From contig JAJRSX010000043.1 of assembly GCA_024278555.1 (NCBI GenBank), positions 1 to 18,236 on the forward strand: a stretch of DNA of 18,236 nucleotides, in the 5' to 3' direction. This document shows positions 8,146-17,900 of the stretch, in pieces. Position numbers and translations under genes: made by a program. Source of the stretch: a bacterium. Lineage in GTDB: Bacteria; CG2-30-53-67; CG2-30-70-394. Below the pieces are notes generated by a model. That model had not been told where the DNA came from. It did no database searches and saw only the letters and a program-made list of their open reading frames with translations. Within the stretch, counting starts at the first letter, position 1. The number at the start of each line of letters is the position of its first letter.

Positions 8146-8550
8146 TCACGGCAATGCCGTCACCTCCGCCTCCAGATCGGTGACAAAGGCCTCGATCGCC
8201 GCCGCCTCGACGACCACGGGGTAGGCGTCGGGGGCGGTACCGGCAGCGGCCTCGTGGAGCAGGGTGAGGTGCAGGCGGTCGCCCTCCACGTCGCCGCGCA
8301 CCGACACCGCCCAGCCGAGGGTGAGGCCGGCGAACAACGACCGCTCCCGTGCCAGGCGGCGCAGGGCGCGCGCCAGGCGGGCGATCTCCCGCATCTCGGC
8401 GCCGGCCCGGTAGCTGAGGCGCAACTCGCCGCCCGCGGCCACCTCCAACAGATAGAGGACGATCCGCTGGTCCGGCCCGTCGTGGCGCCCCTCGGGGGTC
8501 AGGGTAACCCGCACGCTCTTGCCGCCGCCCTCTCCCGCCAACAAAGCCAT
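8146..8550 (-). CDS. Hypothetical protein, 134 aa
   Basis: I do not recognise this protein. It has no signal peptide or membrane segment. It reads as strands at the N-terminus (KSVRVTLTPEGRHDGPDQ), a strand-rich middle (IVLYLLEVAAGGELRLSYRA), one long Arg/Ala/Leu helix (MREIARLARALRRLARERSL), then strands and a terminal helix (AAIEAFVTDLEAEVTALP). Codon use is GC-rich at third positions like its neighbours, which supports a real gene. It lies 61 bases upstream of the symporter on the same strand and may share its transcript. ATG at 8550 lacks a Shine-Dalgarno. Likely cytoplasmic. Confidence 0.6.
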   Translation of the reverse strand: MALLAGEGGGKSVRVTLTPEGRHDGPDQRIVLYLLEVAAGGELRLSYRAGAEMREIARLARALRRLARERSLFAGLTLGWAVSVRGDVEGDRLHLTLLHEAAAGTAPDAYPVVVEAAAIEAFVTDLEAEVTALP

Positions 8551-11747: not shown

Positions 11748-14700
11748 CTAAAAGCGGAACTCGTACCGGAGATCCCCCCCCACCGAGCCGATCTCGTTCT
11801 TGCCGCCGCGCGCCTCCCAGGCGGGGGAGAGGCGGTAGCGGAGCTCGATCACCGGCTCCTCGTTGGAGACGAAGCTGGTGGAGTAGATGAGCGACAGGCG
11901 GTCGGCGAGGTCCTTGCCGAGGGTGAGGCGGGGGGAGACGACGTTCGTCTGGGAGACGGCAAAGGGGTCCACGTCGATCCGGTCGAGGGTCAACAGCCGC
12001 TCCAGCGGCGCCCCGAGGAGCTCACCCCCCGACCCGAAACCGCGGCGCAGGCCGTGGGTGACCATGGAGAGCAGCCGCTCGGTCGCCTCTTCCCCCACCG
12101 CCCCCCCCACCGCGCCGCCCGCCACCGCGGCGAGGATGACCGACTCGTCCAGGGGCGGCGTCGAGCTCGCCTGCAGGGCGAGGTCATCCACCGGGCCGCT
12201 GGCGGTGAGGGTGACGTGGTAGTTCCGCGGTGCCCCGCCCACCATGGTGGCGGTGGTACCGCCGAAGGGCGCGGCGCTGAAGTCCCGCAGGACCGTCTCC
12301 CCCTGGGCGTCGATGAGCGGCTCGATCCCCTCCGGATCGACGAAGGTGACCGACACCGAGGTGAGGTGGATGTCGCGATCGCGCAGGTGCAGGGTGCCGC
12401 TGGAGCCGCTGAGGGATCCCACCACCCCGGGGGCGGTGACCGGTCCGAGGAGGGTCACCTCACCACCGAGGATCAGGTCGAGGAGGTCATTGTTGACCTC
12501 CACCGTCTGCGGCGCGCGCAGGCGCAGGTCGAGGGTGGCCCCCCCGGCGGCCGACGGCGCCGCCCCGCGGGCAAGGGCGCCGGTGTCGAACCCCTTGGTG
12601 TAGCGCAGACGGCGCACCACCAGGTCGCCGCCGACCACCAGCGCCGCAGGCGGACCGCGCAGGGCCAGGTCGCCCTCCACCATCGCCTCGGCCCCCCCAA
12701 TCTCCACCCCCACGCCGGCGAGGCGGGTGTCGAGGACCAGGTGGTCGACCCCGGTGGGGCCGAGGCGGACGAAGCCGTCTCCCTCCACCGTGCCGTCGCC
12801 GAGGCGGCCGTGGAGGCCGTCGATGAGGAGGTGCTGGCCGGAGAAGATCCCCTCCGCCGCCACCCCCTCCAGGCGCAGGTCGAGGCCGGGCACCGGCGCG
12901 CTCCCGTCACGGAGGACGGCGCCGCCGGAGATCTCCGGCAGCGCCGTGGTCCCGGCCACCTCGGCGTAGACCGACAGCCCCCCCTCCACCCCGGCGAGGC
13001 GTGGGTCGCGGCGGGCGAGCGCCGCGAGGTCTGCGTCCGCCTGCACGGTGACCGCGAGGGGGCCACCGGGATTGAACCAACCATCGATCGTCCCGCCGAC
13101 GCCGACGCCGGCCACCGCCAGGTCGTGGAGGTGGAGCCCCCCCTCCTGCCACACCACCTGCGCCGGGGTGTCGATGGCCACCAGGGTGGTCCCGGCGGCG
13201 TGCGCCTTCAGCCCGTCGAGCTCCACCTCCACCCGCAGCGCCTCGGCCGGCTCGATCCGCCCGCCGACGCGAAAGGTCCCGGTCGCCTCACCCCCCACCC
13301 CGAGGGCAACCAGCCGCGCCGGCAGGGCGCCCCGGAGACGGCCGAGCTCGAAGTAGTCGAAGCGGCCTCCGCCGCTCGCCGAGCCGTCCGCGGCCACCGC
13401 GCCGTCGCCGATGAGGGTGGCGCCCGCCGCCCGCGCCTGCCAGCGCACCGCCCCATCCGCCCCGGTCACGGTGAGCTCCATGGGGGCGAGGTCGATCCCC
13501 CATGCCGACACCTTCGGCAGGTGGCCGGTCACCGCCACGCGCACCGGTGCCGGGGTGTGCAGGCGAAAGTCGATGTCCCCGTGGCCGGCGAGATAGGGCC
13601 ACCGGTCGAGGTAGCGGATCGCCGCGAAGTCGATCCCCTTGGAGCTCAGGCGGAGGTCGACGCCGTCGTGGCCGGCGACCAGCTCACCGCGCACCGGCGG
13701 GCCGCCGGCGGCCGGCCACCCCACCATCTCCCCCACCCTGCCCCCCTCGCCGTCGAGGTGCAGGCAGCCGGCGAAGCGCGCCAAGTTCTCCCCCTCAACG
13801 GCGATCCCCTCACCGCCGATCGGGCCGTCGAAGCGCCACCCGCCGCCGCGGCCGGTGACCCGCCCCTCCCCCCACGTCTCCCCGTGCAGGGGGATCCCCA
13901 GGAGCTGCGCCAGATCGCGGCTCTCCGCCGAGGCGATCGCCACGTCGAGGTCGAGGGCGGCGTGGGCGCCGATGGTGCCGGAGACCCTCCCCTCGCCGGT
14001 GGCCATGCGGACGATCCCATCGCGCAGGGTAAGCGGCCCGGCCGCTGGCCGCGCAAAGGCGACGGTGACCCTGGCCGGGGGGAGGCGGTTGAGGATCGCG
14101 CCGGGGTGGCCGGCCGCCTCCGCCTCGCTCAGGCCGCGGCCGCGGATCAACCCCGACGCCTCTCCCTCCACCGTCGTACCCGTGCCGCGCCGATAGTCGA
14201 AGCGGCCGGACAGGGTGGTGGACATCTGAAACGGCAGGTCCGGGAGCGGCTCGCCCCAGCGGGCGCAGGCGGTGCGCAGGTTCGCCCAGGTGAGGTCGGC
14301 GACGGTGAGCTCCCCGTCGGCGGCGCCGGGAGCGATCGTCGCCGCCCCGGTCACCCGCGCCCCCTCCACCACCCCGTCGATATTGGTGAGCCGCACCCCC
14401 CGGCGATCGCCGTCGACGGCCGCCACCACCTGCTGGAGCTCGACGGCGCCGCGGCGCACCTCGGCGAGGCCGATCCGGCCGGCCACGTGCGGATCCGCCA
14501 GGGGCCCGCCACCGGTAACCTGGAGGTGGAGGGTGCCGGCCAGGGGCGCCACCTGCGGCACGATCGGGACCACCTCGGCCAGGTCGACCGAGCCCCCAAG
14601 GCGCCACGTCGCCTCACCCTCCGCCCAGCGGCCGCCGCCGGTGAGGCGGCTACCGTGGCTCGCCACCACCAGGTGGGAGAGGCGCACCCCCTCCGTTCCC

Positions 14701-15281
14701 CCCTCCACGGTCGTCGCCACCGCCACCGCCGGCAGCGGACGACCGTCGACGGTCGCCCGCAAGGCGCCGACCTCCAGATCGACGGTGGCGCGGCCGTCGC
14801 GGATCCGCGCCTGCGCCTCGATGGAGGCCAGGAGGAGGGCGGAGGTGTCGCCGAAAAAGAGGGCCGCCTCGCCGCCGCTCACCTCCACCGCCGCTGGCGG
14901 TGACCCCGTCGGCGACCGCGGGATCAGCGCCGCCAGCGCCGTCGGCTCGGTACAGCTCAGGGTGGGGCGGTGGAGGCGGAGACGGTCGAGGCGAAGGTGG
15001 CCATGAAACAGCGGCGCGGCGGCGAGATCGGCGACCAGCTCCTCCACCCGCACCTCCCCCACCCCCTCACGGGCAAGGGACAGGTCGTCCACCACCAGGC
15101 GCAGGCGCAGGAGGTTGAAGCGCACCCCCCCCACCGCCACCTCGGCGTCGAGGCGCGGTGCCAGCCACCCCCCGAGGCGGGGCGCGGCCACGACGCTGAA
15201 TACCTCCGTGGAGAGGAGGTAGCCGCCGCCGAGGAGGAGAAAGGAGACGCCGAAGAGGGCGCGGAGGAGGAGCCTGCCCAT
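11748..15281 (-). CDS. tamB: TamB-family inner-membrane/periplasmic assembly protein, 1177 aa
   Basis: A member of the AsmA-like/TamB (DUF490) superfamily: a long beta-groove protein anchored in the inner membrane and spanning the periplasm. It is paired with an Omp85 protein and implicated in outer-membrane protein insertion and lipid transport. One N-terminal signal anchor (LLLRALFGVSFLLLGGGYLL, about 4-23) is followed by ~1100 residues of repetitive, strand-rich, glycine-rich sequence typical of the groove. The C-terminal TamB domain is about 920-1177: VNNDLLDLILGGEVTLLG, GTLHLRDRDIHLTSVSVTF, GIEPLIDAQGETVLRDFS, SPRLTLGKDLADRLSLIYST, then ELRYRLSPAWEARGG and a final FRF. Length is close to E. 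coli TamB (about 1260 aa). ATG at 15281 begins the anchor; no Shine-Dalgarno is visible. Here tamB precedes its Omp85 partner, the reverse of E. coli tamA-tamB. Confidence 0.92.
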   Translation of the reverse strand: MGRLLLRALFGVSFLLLGGGYLLSTEVFSVVAAPRLGGWLAPRLDAEVAVGGVRFNLLRLRLVVDDLSLAREGVGEVRVEELVADLAAAPLFHGHLRLDRLRLHRPTLSCTEPTALAALIPRSPTGSPPAAVEVSGGEAALFFGDTSALLLASIEAQARIRDGRATVDLEVGALRATVDGRPLPAVAVATTVEGGTEGVRLSHLVVASHGSRLTGGGRWAEGEATWRLGGSVDLAEVVPIVPQVAPLAGTLHLQVTGGGPLADPHVAGRIGLAEVRRGAVELQQVVAAVDGDRRGVRLTNIDGVVEGARVTGAATIAPGAADGELTVADLTWANLRTACARWGEPLPDLPFQMSTTLSGRFDYRRGTGTTVEGEASGLIRGRGLSEAEAAGHPGAILNRLPPARVTVAFARPAAGPLTLRDGIVRMATGEGRVSGTIGAHAALDLDVAIASAESRDLAQLLGIPLHGETWGEGRVTGRGGGWRFDGPIGGEGIAVEGENLARFAGCLHLDGEGGRVGEMVGWPAAGGPPVRGELVAGHDGVDLRLSSKGIDFAAIRYLDRWPYLAGHGDIDFRLHTPAPVRVAVTGHLPKVSAWGIDLAPMELTVTGADGAVRWQARAAGATLIGDGAVAADGSASGGGRFDYFELGRLRGALPARLVALGVGGEATGTFRVGGRIEPAEALRVEVELDGLKAHAAGTTLVAIDTPAQVVWQEGGLHLHDLAVAGVGVGGTIDGWFNPGGPLAVTVQADADLAALARRDPRLAGVEGGLSVYAEVAGTTALPEISGGAVLRDGSAPVPGLDLRLEGVAAEGIFSGQHLLIDGLHGRLGDGTVEGDGFVRLGPTGVDHLVLDTRLAGVGVEIGGAEAMVEGDLALRGPPAALVVGGDLVVRRLRYTKGFDTGALARGAAPSAAGGATLDLRLRAPQTVEVNNDLLDLILGGEVTLLGPVTAPGVVGSLSGSSGTLHLRDRDIHLTSVSVTFVDPEGIEPLIDAQGETVLRDFSAAPFGGTTATMVGGAPRNYHVTLTASGPVDDLALQASSTPPLDESVILAAVAGGAVGGAVGEEATERLLSMVTHGLRRGFGSGGELLGAPLERLLTLDRIDVDPFAVSQTNVVSPRLTLGKDLADRLSLIYSTSFVSNEEPVIELRYRLSPAWEARGGKNEIGSVGGDLRYEFRF

Positions 15282-15318
15282 GGAAAAACGCTTGTTACCG
15301 GCGGCGCAGGGGGGAGCG

Positions 15319-15339
15319 TGTGGACAACCGTGTGGACAA
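15319..15339 (-). promoter_or_regulatory. Two DnaA-type boxes (TTGTCCACA) in tandem
   Basis: TGTGGACAA occurs at 15319-15327 and 15331-15339, 12 bases apart; on the minus strand both read TTGTCCACA. This is one mismatch from the E. coli DnaA box TTATCCACA and equals the box common in high-GC actinobacteria. They lie 38 and 50 bases upstream of the tamB start, between it and the promoter-like pair. Alternatively they may be chance repeats. Confidence 0.45.
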
Positions 15340-15377
15340 GAGGGTCGTTAGTCGAGCACTGCTTGAAGAGTCGTCGC

Positions 15378-15409
15378 TAACCCATTGGTTCGTTCATAAC
15401 CCATTGGTT
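15378..15409. repeat. Two 13-base direct repeats TAACCCATTGGTT
   Basis: TAACCCATTGGTT occurs identically at 15378-15390 and 15397-15409, 19 bases start to start, close to two helical turns. Each copy contains the inverted ends AACC/GGTT. The repeats lie in AT-richer sequence and overlap the -10 and spacer of the proposed tamB promoter, which is the geometry of a tandem operator; iteron-like repeats at an origin are the alternative. Confidence 0.6.
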
Positions 15410-15421
15410 TTTATAGCTCAA
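15393..15421 (-). promoter_or_regulatory. Candidate sigma70-type promoter for tamB
   Basis: On the minus strand TTGAGC (15421-15416), a 17-base spacer and TATGAA (15398-15393) match the -35/-10 consensus 4 of 6 each with ideal spacing. It would give a leader of about 105 bases before tamB. It is the best such pair in the gap, but promoters in high-GC genomes are hard to call by eye. Confidence 0.4.
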
Positions 15422-15504
15422 AACGGGATGACGATGGTCCCCAATACTGACCCGAGGCACCACGACCCTCACCGTGGCAGCACCTTATCTCCCTTTTCCA
15501 GCGG

Positions 15505-15513
15505 TTATCCACA
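15505..15513 (+). promoter_or_regulatory. Perfect DnaA box TTATCCACA
   Basis: TTATCCACA at 15505-15513 is an exact match to the strong E. coli DnaA box. It faces opposite to the two TTGTCCACA copies at 15319-15339 and lies 166 bases from the nearer one. With only three boxes it is not proof of an origin; DnaA also acts as a transcription factor. Confidence 0.5.
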
Positions 15514-15588
15514 AGGTATGCACCGCCGGACCTCCCCCTTTCACCGGCACGACGAAGGGGGAACCGCCCCCCCTCGATCCAATCTGCG

Positions 15589-15602
15589 TTGATTCAAATC
15601 AA
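15589..15602. promoter_or_regulatory. FNR/ANR/DNR-type operator
   Basis: TTGATTCAAATCAA is a perfect match to the FNR-family site TTGAT-N4-ATCAA. CRP/FNR regulators with this specificity sense oxygen or nitric oxide. The site lies 44 bases beyond the tolC-like stop codon and 307 bases ahead of tamB. No good -10 lies at the class II distance on either strand, so activation from here would need a distal (class I-like) or unseen promoter. Confidence 0.6.
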
Positions 15603-15646
15603 ACCGGCCAATGGCAACAATTCGCACGGCAGATCCCCGCAGGCAC

Positions 15647-17161
15647 TCACCCCCCACCGGGGTCGCCACCGGGCGCGTCCGCCGCCTCCACCCGCAGGTG
15701 GTGGCGCTCCAGCAACATCCCCTCGGCATCCCACAGGCGGGCGACCGCCAGGAGGTAGGCGGTACGCGACGCCACATTGCGCTCGCGCGCCTCGGTGAGG
15801 TCGCGCTGCGCCTCCAGGACATCGTGGGGGGTGGCGACACCCACACGGAACTTCTCCTCCTCCGCGTCGAGGCGCGCCGCCCACGAGGCCACCGCCTTGG
15901 CGGTGGCGGCGATCCGTCGCCTGCTCGTCGCCACCTCGCGCACCGCGGCACGCACCGCCGCCACCACCGACGCCGCAGCATCCCGCAGCGCCAGATCGGC
16001 CTGCCGGTGGCGGTGGTGGGCCTGCTCGGCGGCGGCGCGGCCGGCCCGGTTGCCCAGGGGATAGGTGAGGGCGAGACCAACGCCATAAGAGAAGAAGTCG
16101 CGGCGACCGAGCTGGTCGGCGAGCTCCTGGACCCGCTGGTCACCGGTAAGGCCACCGGCCCCCACCCGGCCGGTGAGGGCGAGGTCCGGGAGGCGCAGGT
16201 TGTCCGCCCGCGCCGCCTCCAGGCCGCGCCGCTCCCGTGCCAGGCGGGCCAGGGCCAGGTCGGTGCGATGCTCGCGGGCGCGCGCCAGGGCGACGTCGAG
16301 GTCCGGATCCTGCGCCTCGATCGGCGGCAGGGGCGCCGGTACCGGCCGCAGCTCCCAGCTCTCATCCTCCTCCGTCCCCACCCCGGTCACCTCCAGCAGC
16401 CGGTCCTGGGCGTCGGCGAGTGCCTGCTCCGCCACCGCCACCCCCTCCTCGCGCAGGGCCACCTCCGCCTCCGCTCCGAGCCGCTCGTAGGGGGGCAGCC
16501 CCCCCACCCGCACCCGCTCCCCCACGTTCTCCGCCAGGGAGCGCGCCAGCTCCCGGGAGGCGCGCGCCACCTTCAGCCGCTCCCCCGCCTCCACCAGGTG
16601 CCAGTAGCCCTCCTCGGTGGCCAGCACCACCTCCTCCATCGCCGCCCGCAGGCGCACCGCCTCCACCTCGGTCGCCACCCGCGCCAGGCGCACCGGCGCG
16701 AGGTTCACCGCGGTGCCGCCGCCGCGCAGGAGCGGCTGGGTGATGGCGAGGTCGAGGGCGGCGTCGAAGCGCGGGTTGAGGGTGGAGAAGGGAAAGTTGT
16801 CGCGCTGGCGATCACCGGTGAACTTCAGGCTCGCCTCGGTGCCGAGGGCGAAGCGACGGGTGAGCCCGAGGCTGACCGCCACCGACTCCCGGGTCGTCCC
16901 GAAGAGATCGGAGGCGGTGGGGGTCTCGGTGTGGTCAAAGTCGACGCCGGCGGTCACCGTGGTATCGAAATCGGCCGCCGCCTCCACCTCGCTCCCCGTG
17001 GCGATGGGCAACGCCTCCGCCGCCAGGGCGACCCCGAGGTTGCGCGCCACCGCCCACTCCACCGCCTCCTCCATCCCCACCGACCGCGCCACCGGCGTGG
17101 CCGTGGCGACCGCAGCCGAGAGGACAGCGACACAGCCAAGGAGGGGGGTGATCCGCACCAT
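15647..17161 (-). CDS. TolC-family outer-membrane channel protein, 504 aa
   Basis: An outer-membrane efflux protein: a trimeric channel with a periplasmic helical barrel, used by tripartite efflux pumps or type I secretion. The signal peptide is about residues 1-22 (LLGCVAVLSAAVATATP). Two homologous halves are visible. The first begins MEEAVEWAVARNLGVALAAE at 30-49, with the hallmark ALDLAITQPLLRGGG and a long helix EVVLATEEGYWHLVEAGERL. The second starts LDVALARAREHRTDLALARL, with SYGVGLALTYPLGNRAGR and closing helices ending LLAVARLWDAEGMLLERHHL. The frame continues open upstream to 17788, but that part is antisense to the toxin-antitoxin genes, so ATG at 17161 is the start. No RND pump, membrane-fusion protein or ABC exporter is next to it; tamB follows downstream on the same strand. 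Confidence 0.88.
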   Translation of the reverse strand: MVRITPLLGCVAVLSAAVATATPVARSVGMEEAVEWAVARNLGVALAAEALPIATGSEVEAAADFDTTVTAGVDFDHTETPTASDLFGTTRESVAVSLGLTRRFALGTEASLKFTGDRQRDNFPFSTLNPRFDAALDLAITQPLLRGGGTAVNLAPVRLARVATEVEAVRLRAAMEEVVLATEEGYWHLVEAGERLKVARASRELARSLAENVGERVRVGGLPPYERLGAEAEVALREEGVAVAEQALADAQDRLLEVTGVGTEEDESWELRPVPAPLPPIEAQDPDLDVALARAREHRTDLALARLARERRGLEAARADNLRLPDLALTGRVGAGGLTGDQRVQELADQLGRRDFFSYGVGLALTYPLGNRAGRAAAEQAHHRHRQADLALRDAAASVVAAVRAAVREVATSRRRIAATAKAVASWAARLDAEEEKFRVGVATPHDVLEAQRDLTEARERNVASRTAYLLAVARLWDAEGMLLERHHLRVEAADAPGGDPGGG

Positions 17162-17318: not shown

Positions 17319-17627
17319 TCACGGCTCCGACGGGAGCTTGAGGAGGCGCTCGCTACGCCAGACACGGACGATACGCACGCGATGAGGTTGGCGTTGGTAG
17401 ATGATACGGAAAGGCGGGCGGATGAGCTCCCGGAGGTGGGGAAGGTTGAGTTCGGGGACGACGCGGCCCATGTCGGGCTGCTCGGCGAGCGCCTCGACCT
17501 GTTGAACCACGCGGGCCACGAGGCGTCGGCCAACCTCGGGGACCTCCCCCGCGACGTAGTGGGCGAGCACCGCCTCGAGGTCGCCGATGGCGGAGTCGGC
17601 AAAGGAGATGCGGATCTCAGCGCCCAT
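17319..17627 (-). CDS. RelE/ParE-family toxin, 102 aa
   Basis: Type II toxin of the RelE/ParE superfamily. The typical order is present: an N-terminal strand (IRISFADSAIGDLEAVLAHY), a helical hairpin (VGRRLVARVVQQVEALAEQP), and then the diagnostic strand run MGRVVPEL, LRELIRPPFRIIYQRQP, HRVRIVRVWRSERLL. ParE-branch members poison DNA gyrase and RelE-branch members cut mRNA at ribosomes. The sequence favours ParE-like, since a clear RelE catalytic set is not evident. It starts at ATG 17627, 3 bases after the antitoxin stop codon, consistent with coupled translation, and depends on the antitoxin for neutralisation and repression. Codon use is slightly less GC-biased than neighbours, as often in mobile toxin-antitoxin pairs. 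Confidence 0.85.
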   Translation of the reverse strand: MGAEIRISFADSAIGDLEAVLAHYVAGEVPEVGRRLVARVVQQVEALAEQPDMGRVVPELNLPHLRELIRPPFRIIYQRQPHRVRIVRVWRSERLLKLPSEP

Positions 17628-17630
17628 GGG

Positions 17631-17900
17631 TCAGCCGAGCCCCAGGCGCGCCTTGACCTCCGGGAGATCCACCTCTCTCCCCGCCTCCAGATCGAGGAGC
17701 CCCTGGACCACCGCCCGCATGAAGTCACGCTCCTCCTCCGCCGCCTCGAAATCGTCAAGGGCCTGGACCACCGCCACCCCGCGGCCACGGCTGGTGAGGA
17801 GGACCGGCCGGTGCACCTCTCCCACCTGTTTCACGACCCGGCCAGGGTTGACCTTCAGGTCGGTGAGGGGGATGACATCCGTGGAAAATCGGATCTCCAT
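17631..17900 (-). CDS. Phd/YefM-family antitoxin, 89 aa
   Basis: The N-terminal DNA-binding fold of Phd/YefM is recognisable: DVIPLTDLKVNPGRVVKQVG at about 8-27, PVLLTSRGRGVAVVQALDDF at 32-51. A helical, acidic C-terminal tail follows (EEERDFMRAVVQGLLDLEAG), the part that usually wraps the toxin. It should neutralise the adjacent ParE-like toxin and repress the operon by binding the palindrome at 17926-17945. ATG at 17900 is supported by GGAG 5 bases upstream. Length is normal for the family. The gene order antitoxin-toxin and the 3-base spacing are standard. Confidence 0.88.
   Translation of the reverse strand: MEIRFSTDVIPLTDLKVNPGRVVKQVGEVHRPVLLTSRGRGVAVVQALDDFEAAEEERDFMRAVVQGLLDLEAGREVDLPEVKARLGLG

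Follow-up and report, generated by a model that had tools for sequence, protein, structure and literature searches.

A conserved core of divergent DnaA boxes between tolC and tamB is a candidate replication origin of an uncultured bacterium

The intergenic gap between the tolC and tamB genes of an uncultured bacterium carries a well-supported, conserved DnaA site, at which DnaA is predicted to bind. Its 195-bp core consists of two divergent double DnaA boxes on either side of an AT-rich patch that overlaps two IHF-like sites. As judged from its sequence, the core is the best candidate for the replication origin of this bacterium, and it appears to be a DnaA/IHF-type nucleoprotein site built like known DnaA/IHF assemblies. 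The likeliest reading, to which we assign about even confidence, is that the core is the oriC of the lineage, with a position in the tolC–tamB gap and not beside dnaA. The window analyzed here (18,236 nucleotides) covers all of contig C12, one of the 211 contigs that make up a 3.06-Mb draft genome.

DnaA boxes of the tolC–tamB gap

The gap (15282-15646) separates two co-directional neighbors, tolC (which ends at 15647) and tamB (which starts at 15281), both of which are on the minus strand (Table 1). Genes around the gap point away from it, with the exception of tolC, mqnA, and a toxin-antitoxin pair. The latter, made up of a ParE-type toxin gene and an apparent antitoxin gene, is found at 17319-17900 of the window, between tolC and the contig end. 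A TolC search of genome contigs matched one relative, the MAG Nitrospirae bacterium CG2_30_70_394, and the same-genus comparison presented below comprises these two genomes of the family. A GTDB phylum bearing this name is present in the literature (PMC12501874). The relative has tolC and ubiD as immediate neighbors, and the toxin-antitoxin pair thus looks like an insertion, at which the assembly also breaks. As ubiD was found on contig C60, this contig is the probable right-hand neighbor of C12.

The earlier note had reported an exact TTATCCACA at 15505-15513 and two TTGTCCACA 12 bases apart on the minus strand, and all three boxes are exactly as described: TTATCCACA is on the plus strand, and the copies of TTGTCCACA occupy 15319-15327 and 15331-15339. 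The count of three was nevertheless short by one, as a fourth, weaker box, TTTTCCAGC (15494-15502), which had been overlooked, is positioned 2 bp from TTATCCACA and is kept in the relative. Scanning for box pairs that are 2 or 3 bp apart resolved the four boxes into two double boxes, which face opposite ways, outward from the AT-rich patch. E. coli DnaA binds preferentially to box pairs with a spacing of 2-3 bp at oriC, DARS, nrdA, and other sites (PMC11317965). The motif TTRTCCACA was observed three times in the gap, compared to at most one in 5000 dinucleotide shuffles of the gap.

Table 1. Features of the tolC–tamB gap and its flanking genes, in window coordinates
Feature	Position	Strand	Basis
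tamB	11748..15281	-	Pfam TamB PF04357, E 3.6e-27
Conserved core (AT-rich patch with a double DnaA box on either side, the two being divergent)	15319..15513		Alignment with relative; non-coding
Double DnaA box TTGTCCACA-cgg-TTGTCCACA, 3-bp gap, core left end	15319..15339	-	Exact; identical in relative
AT-rich patch (GC about 42%) that overlaps both IHF-like sites; putative unwinding element	15366..15425		GC scan
IHF-like site AACCAATGGGTTA (first 13-base repeat)	15378..15390	-	8/9 consensus positions of WATCAANNNNTTR; pattern scan
Second IHF-like site AACCAATGGGTTA (second 13-base repeat)	15397..15409	-	8/9 consensus positions of WATCAANNNNTTR; pattern scan and alignment
Double DnaA box TTTTCCAGC-gg-TTATCCACA, 2-bp gap, core right end	15494..15513	+	Boxes and spacer identical in relative
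FNR-type palindrome TTGATTCAAATCAA, outside core	15589..15602		One of three such sites in genome
tolC-type outer membrane efflux protein	15650..17161	-	Pfam OEP PF02321, E 1.4e-31

Alignment with the same-genus relative, which the earlier note had proposed as a check, shows that the boxes are kept, and the lack of conservation in close relatives that was to speak against the earlier interpretation is not seen. The core is collinear in the two species, contains no indel, and is identical at 137 of 195 positions (70%). The identical blocks match the boxes: the TTATCCACA end agrees at 23 of 23 bases and the TTGTCCACA pair at 21 of 21, with the weak half-box TTTTCCAGC explaining the conserved flank of TTATCCACA. 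The AT-rich stretch ATAAAAACCAA is also identical, and both species space the boxes by the same 12 and 174 bp. The core is non-coding: no frame stays open in both species, and the mismatches display no codon periodicity. A tRNA scan found none. In the relative, the DNA that separates the core from tamB is longer by about 440 bases and that on the tolC side by about 220, and the core–tamB distance is accordingly about 475 bp, compared to about 40 bp here. Because the flanking DNA differs in length on both sides, the core is independent of tolC and tamB and is itself the conserved unit, which is unlikely to be a promoter of either gene. In class-level relatives (family f2, the other family of the phylum), tolC is present, and neither tamA/tamB nor a box cluster was detected beside it; the conservation of the core is thus shown at the genus level only.

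The clustering of boxes in the gap is exceptional in both genomes. Three of the 16 genome-wide TTRTCCACA sites fall inside the 195 bp (rough probability 7e-6), as do three of the six sites of the relative at the homologous gap (rough probability 3e-7). Furthermore, the gap is the only spot in the genome where two of its 50 TTNTNCACA sites are found inside 1 kb, and the 31 such sites of the relative form one true cluster, at the homologous gap. The proposed scan for DnaA-box clusters therefore leaves the gap as the sole TTNTNCACA cluster of both drafts, which, together with its double boxes, gives it the prominence in the genome expected of an oriC. In the contigs sampled for box and parS scans (~1.6 Mb of the 3.06-Mb genome, about half), the TTGTCCACA pair is the sole zero-mismatch double box, and three other groups of boxes with one mismatch are present, two in coding-like DNA and one at the nrdJ promoter.

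AT-rich patch and IHF-like sites

Between the two arrays, the local GC content drops to 40-42% over 45-60 bp, compared to about 75% around it, in agreement with the relatively AT-rich stretch described earlier. The patch ties with a site at 17.88 kb for the lowest 60-bp GC content of the window. It is a candidate for the AT-rich unwinding element that an oriC carries next to its boxes, with a melting potential that is predicted from composition.

The 13-mer TAACCCATTGGTT, previously noted as two direct repeats, is indeed exact at 15378-15390 and 15397-15409, within a 19-nt direct repeat; its copies are, however, better read as two IHF-like sites. The relative carries CTTCAAAGGGTTA at the position of the first and AACCAAAGGGTTA at that of the second, with CAA and TTA kept in both copies and the spacer letters changed. 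An A-tract precedes the second site on the minus strand. IHF-like matches occur at 0.1 per kb in the genome, and two in the 195-bp core, where about 0.02 would be expected, are thus unusual, with the caveat that both are copies of one repeat. Genes of the IHF/HU family are found on contigs C157 and C192. We had also considered CAANGGGTTR as an origin-specific iteron, which was ruled out by its 50 copies genome-wide; the motif was re-read as IHF-like. The FNR box of the earlier note is present as TTGATTCAAATCAA, outside the core, but is absent from the gap of the relative.

The dnaA region, replication skew, and other DnaA-box sites

The dnaA gene resides on a different contig, C123, where rsmG, mnmG, mnmE, and yidC are followed by dnaA, dnaN, recF, and gyrB in what is the ancestral order (gene names, except that of DnaA, were read by eye). 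Domain IV of the encoded DnaA aligns to the structure of its E. coli counterpart (1J1V, E 2.5e-27) and is a canonical DNA-binding domain. No TTNTNCACA was found in the 51.8 kb of C123, and no conserved box within one mismatch is present upstream of dnaA (rpmH-dnaA) in the two species. In genomes of the other family (L041-L046), dnaA is preceded by two or three weak boxes, whose spacing of 12 and 11 bp is constant; these boxes are missing in the genus of the window.

Replication skew was estimated from fourfold-degenerate sites, at which it is weak, with a regional noise of 0.09 (sd) and a steady sign along most long contigs. At the gap, the skew does not switch (-0.08 on the left, -0.23 in tolC, and about -0.01 in the probable right neighbor C60), in a comparison of about 15 kb on the left with 12 kb on the right that has high noise. 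The GC-skew check envisaged by the earlier note, carried out here on draft contigs, does not support an origin exactly at the gap. On C123, one of nine contigs tested, the sign of the skew changes from minus to plus at about 20-26 kb (p < 0.001 in a within-contig permutation test). A local inversion would be another possible cause of this switch, at which no alternative box cluster was found. The only two perfect parS sites of the sampled half of the genome are at C123:611 and C123:3091, beside rsmG/mnmG. Hence dnaA, dnaN, and parS, which serve as indicators of a nearby oriC, are all on C123, a draft contig separate from C12. Normally, parS is near oriC (PMC3899335). An oriC that is both beside dnaA and near the skew switch is found in only 60% of chromosomes (PMC2275245).

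DnaA boxes are also found elsewhere in these genomes. The nrdJ gene, which encodes a class II, vitamin B12-dependent ribonucleotide reductase, is preceded by a conserved double box, TTTTCCACA-3bp-CTATCCACA, at 8243-8263 of L053 (G000:C184), with the gene at 8487, and at 4145-4165 of L153 (G001:C57). The boxes are next to a conserved TTGACC-TATAAG promoter, the promoter region carries, like the gap, a AACCCATTGTTTTTAT stretch (AACCCATTG-TTTTTAT), and there is no opposed second array. Going by these motifs, nrdJ is likely to be controlled by DnaA, as nrdA is in E. coli, and the conserved double box with its promoter indicates that the lineage also employs double boxes to control genes. An imperfect double box, TTGTCCGAA-2bp-TTATCCACA, is present at 9786-9805 of L062 (G000:C68). 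The f2 genomes have box clusters of their own, elsewhere than at tolC. In the other family of the phylum, three DnaA boxes spaced by 23 and 100 bp, together with repeated CCACATATTGT, are conserved upstream of gap-pgk-tpi (L032:9273-9381, L033:8117-8225, L034:9331-9439) and are possibly the origin of that family.

Interpretation of the core and comparison with known systems

Considering (i) that the core holds the only TTNTNCACA cluster, (ii) its conservation over 195 bp, (iii) its double boxes and IHF-like sites, (iv) its AT-richness for this genome, (v) the combination of a canonical DnaA domain IV with a usual rpmH-dnaA site that has no conserved box, (vi) the genes that mostly diverge from the gap, and (vii) the limited share of chromosomes with oriC beside dnaA, we favor its assignment to oriC. 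In such an origin, cooperative binding of DnaA would take place at both outward-facing double boxes. The arrays would be joined by an IHF/HU-type protein that bends the intervening DNA at its two tandem sites, and the 40%-GC patch would melt, giving rise to replication origin activity. The assignment is disfavored by the small number of boxes, by arrays that point off the AT-rich patch, by a comparison limited to two genomes of the family, and by the lack of a DnaA-trio, with no NTN run of three found within 16 bp of a box with up to two mismatches, while the E. coli control was found. The DnaA-trio is a usual, not universal, feature of oriC: it is predicted in about 85% of origins (PMC8287927) and is absent in some, such as that of C. 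jejuni (PMC6052347). As no trio was found and the skew and parS results are not decisive, membership of the core in oriC is not established. The origin proposed by the earlier note stays a live reading, with conserved boxes that form the sole cluster in both drafts and with no support from skew at the gap. More tentatively, the origin of this candidate phylum may have relocated to the compact tolC–tamB site, leaving dnaA and parS behind in the ancestral rsmG-mnmG-rpmH-dnaA-dnaN region. It is with similar reserve that we picture the relocated site as a minimal origin, in which two divergent double boxes around two IHF-like sites would be split from the centromere region.

The absence of a skew switch at the gap counts against oriC, as do parS and an origin-like switch on C123, which agree with a control locus of the datA/DARS type, at which DnaA and IHF would hydrolyze or exchange the DnaA nucleotide or titrate DnaA, with oriC being elsewhere, perhaps near dnaA and parS. 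We regard such a locus as a serious possibility that falls short of even. The datA and DARS loci of E. coli have few DnaA boxes, datA and DARS2 have an IHF site, and clusters resembling datA have been reported for B. subtilis and Streptomyces (PMC5742627). In pattern scans, the core has this layout of boxes with IHF-like sites; a datA/DARS locus would in addition be outside oriC. However, a datA/DARS-type core would leave both species without a recognizable box cluster at oriC, given that C123 has no TTNTNCACA and that a conserved box is missing upstream of dnaA. Control of a tamB promoter by DnaA, or read-through control of tolC-tamB, which would link envelope assembly to the cell cycle as the earlier note had suggested, is improbable. 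Both species do have the core upstream of tamB, and DnaA does regulate genes, with nrdJ carrying its conserved double box in this lineage; but the place of the boxes relative to tamB is not kept, no sigma-70 promoter was found in the gap, compared to the conserved one at nrdJ, and four boxes in a rigid 174-bp geometry are not obviously needed for such a role. Least probable, and very unlikely, is a structured small RNA or leader that would account for the conservation of non-coding DNA and make the box matches incidental: the core has no Rfam match, its folding z-score is only -1.5, and the invariant blocks fall on DnaA boxes.

If the core is oriC, it provides a lineage of phylum rank, for which metagenomes are the only source, with a candidate origin whose set of boxes is unusually small and whose location is not linked to dnaA. 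Such an origin would help to ask what the minimum number of DnaA sites per origin is and how an origin can relocate when parS does not. If the core is instead datA/DARS-like, it represents a DnaA-control locus in a lineage distant from the Gammaproteobacteria, in a form open to tests by sequence.

The core shares with an oriC of the E. coli type its opposed DnaA arrays that include double boxes, the IHF-like sites between boxes, the AT-rich patch, and an intergenic location with one copy per genome; in E. coli, an IHF site is found between the DnaA boxes of both oriC and datA (PMC5742627). It differs from that oriC in having only four boxes, in having its arrays enclose the AT-rich patch, which in that oriC is outside them, and in that neither a DnaA-trio nor a skew switch was seen. 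The genes that usually indicate an oriC (dnaA, dnaN, hemE, gidA, and hemB; PMC2275245) also do not include its neighbors, tolC and tamB. With datA and DARS2 of E. coli, the core has in common a few boxes of mixed orientation, an IHF-like site, and an intergenic position away from dnaA; the DARS core contains three DnaA boxes, one of which is opposite to the other two (PMC5742627). Unlike datA and DARS2, the core has perfect boxes, a wide 174-bp spacing, and an AT-rich center, and its genome would have no other strong cluster of boxes. Finally, its 3-bp-gap double box beside a AACCCATTG(G)TTTTTAT stretch resembles the double-box promoters of E. coli nrdA and of nrdJ in its own genome, from which the gap is set apart by a second, opposed double box, the lack of a detected promoter, and an unconserved distance to the gene.
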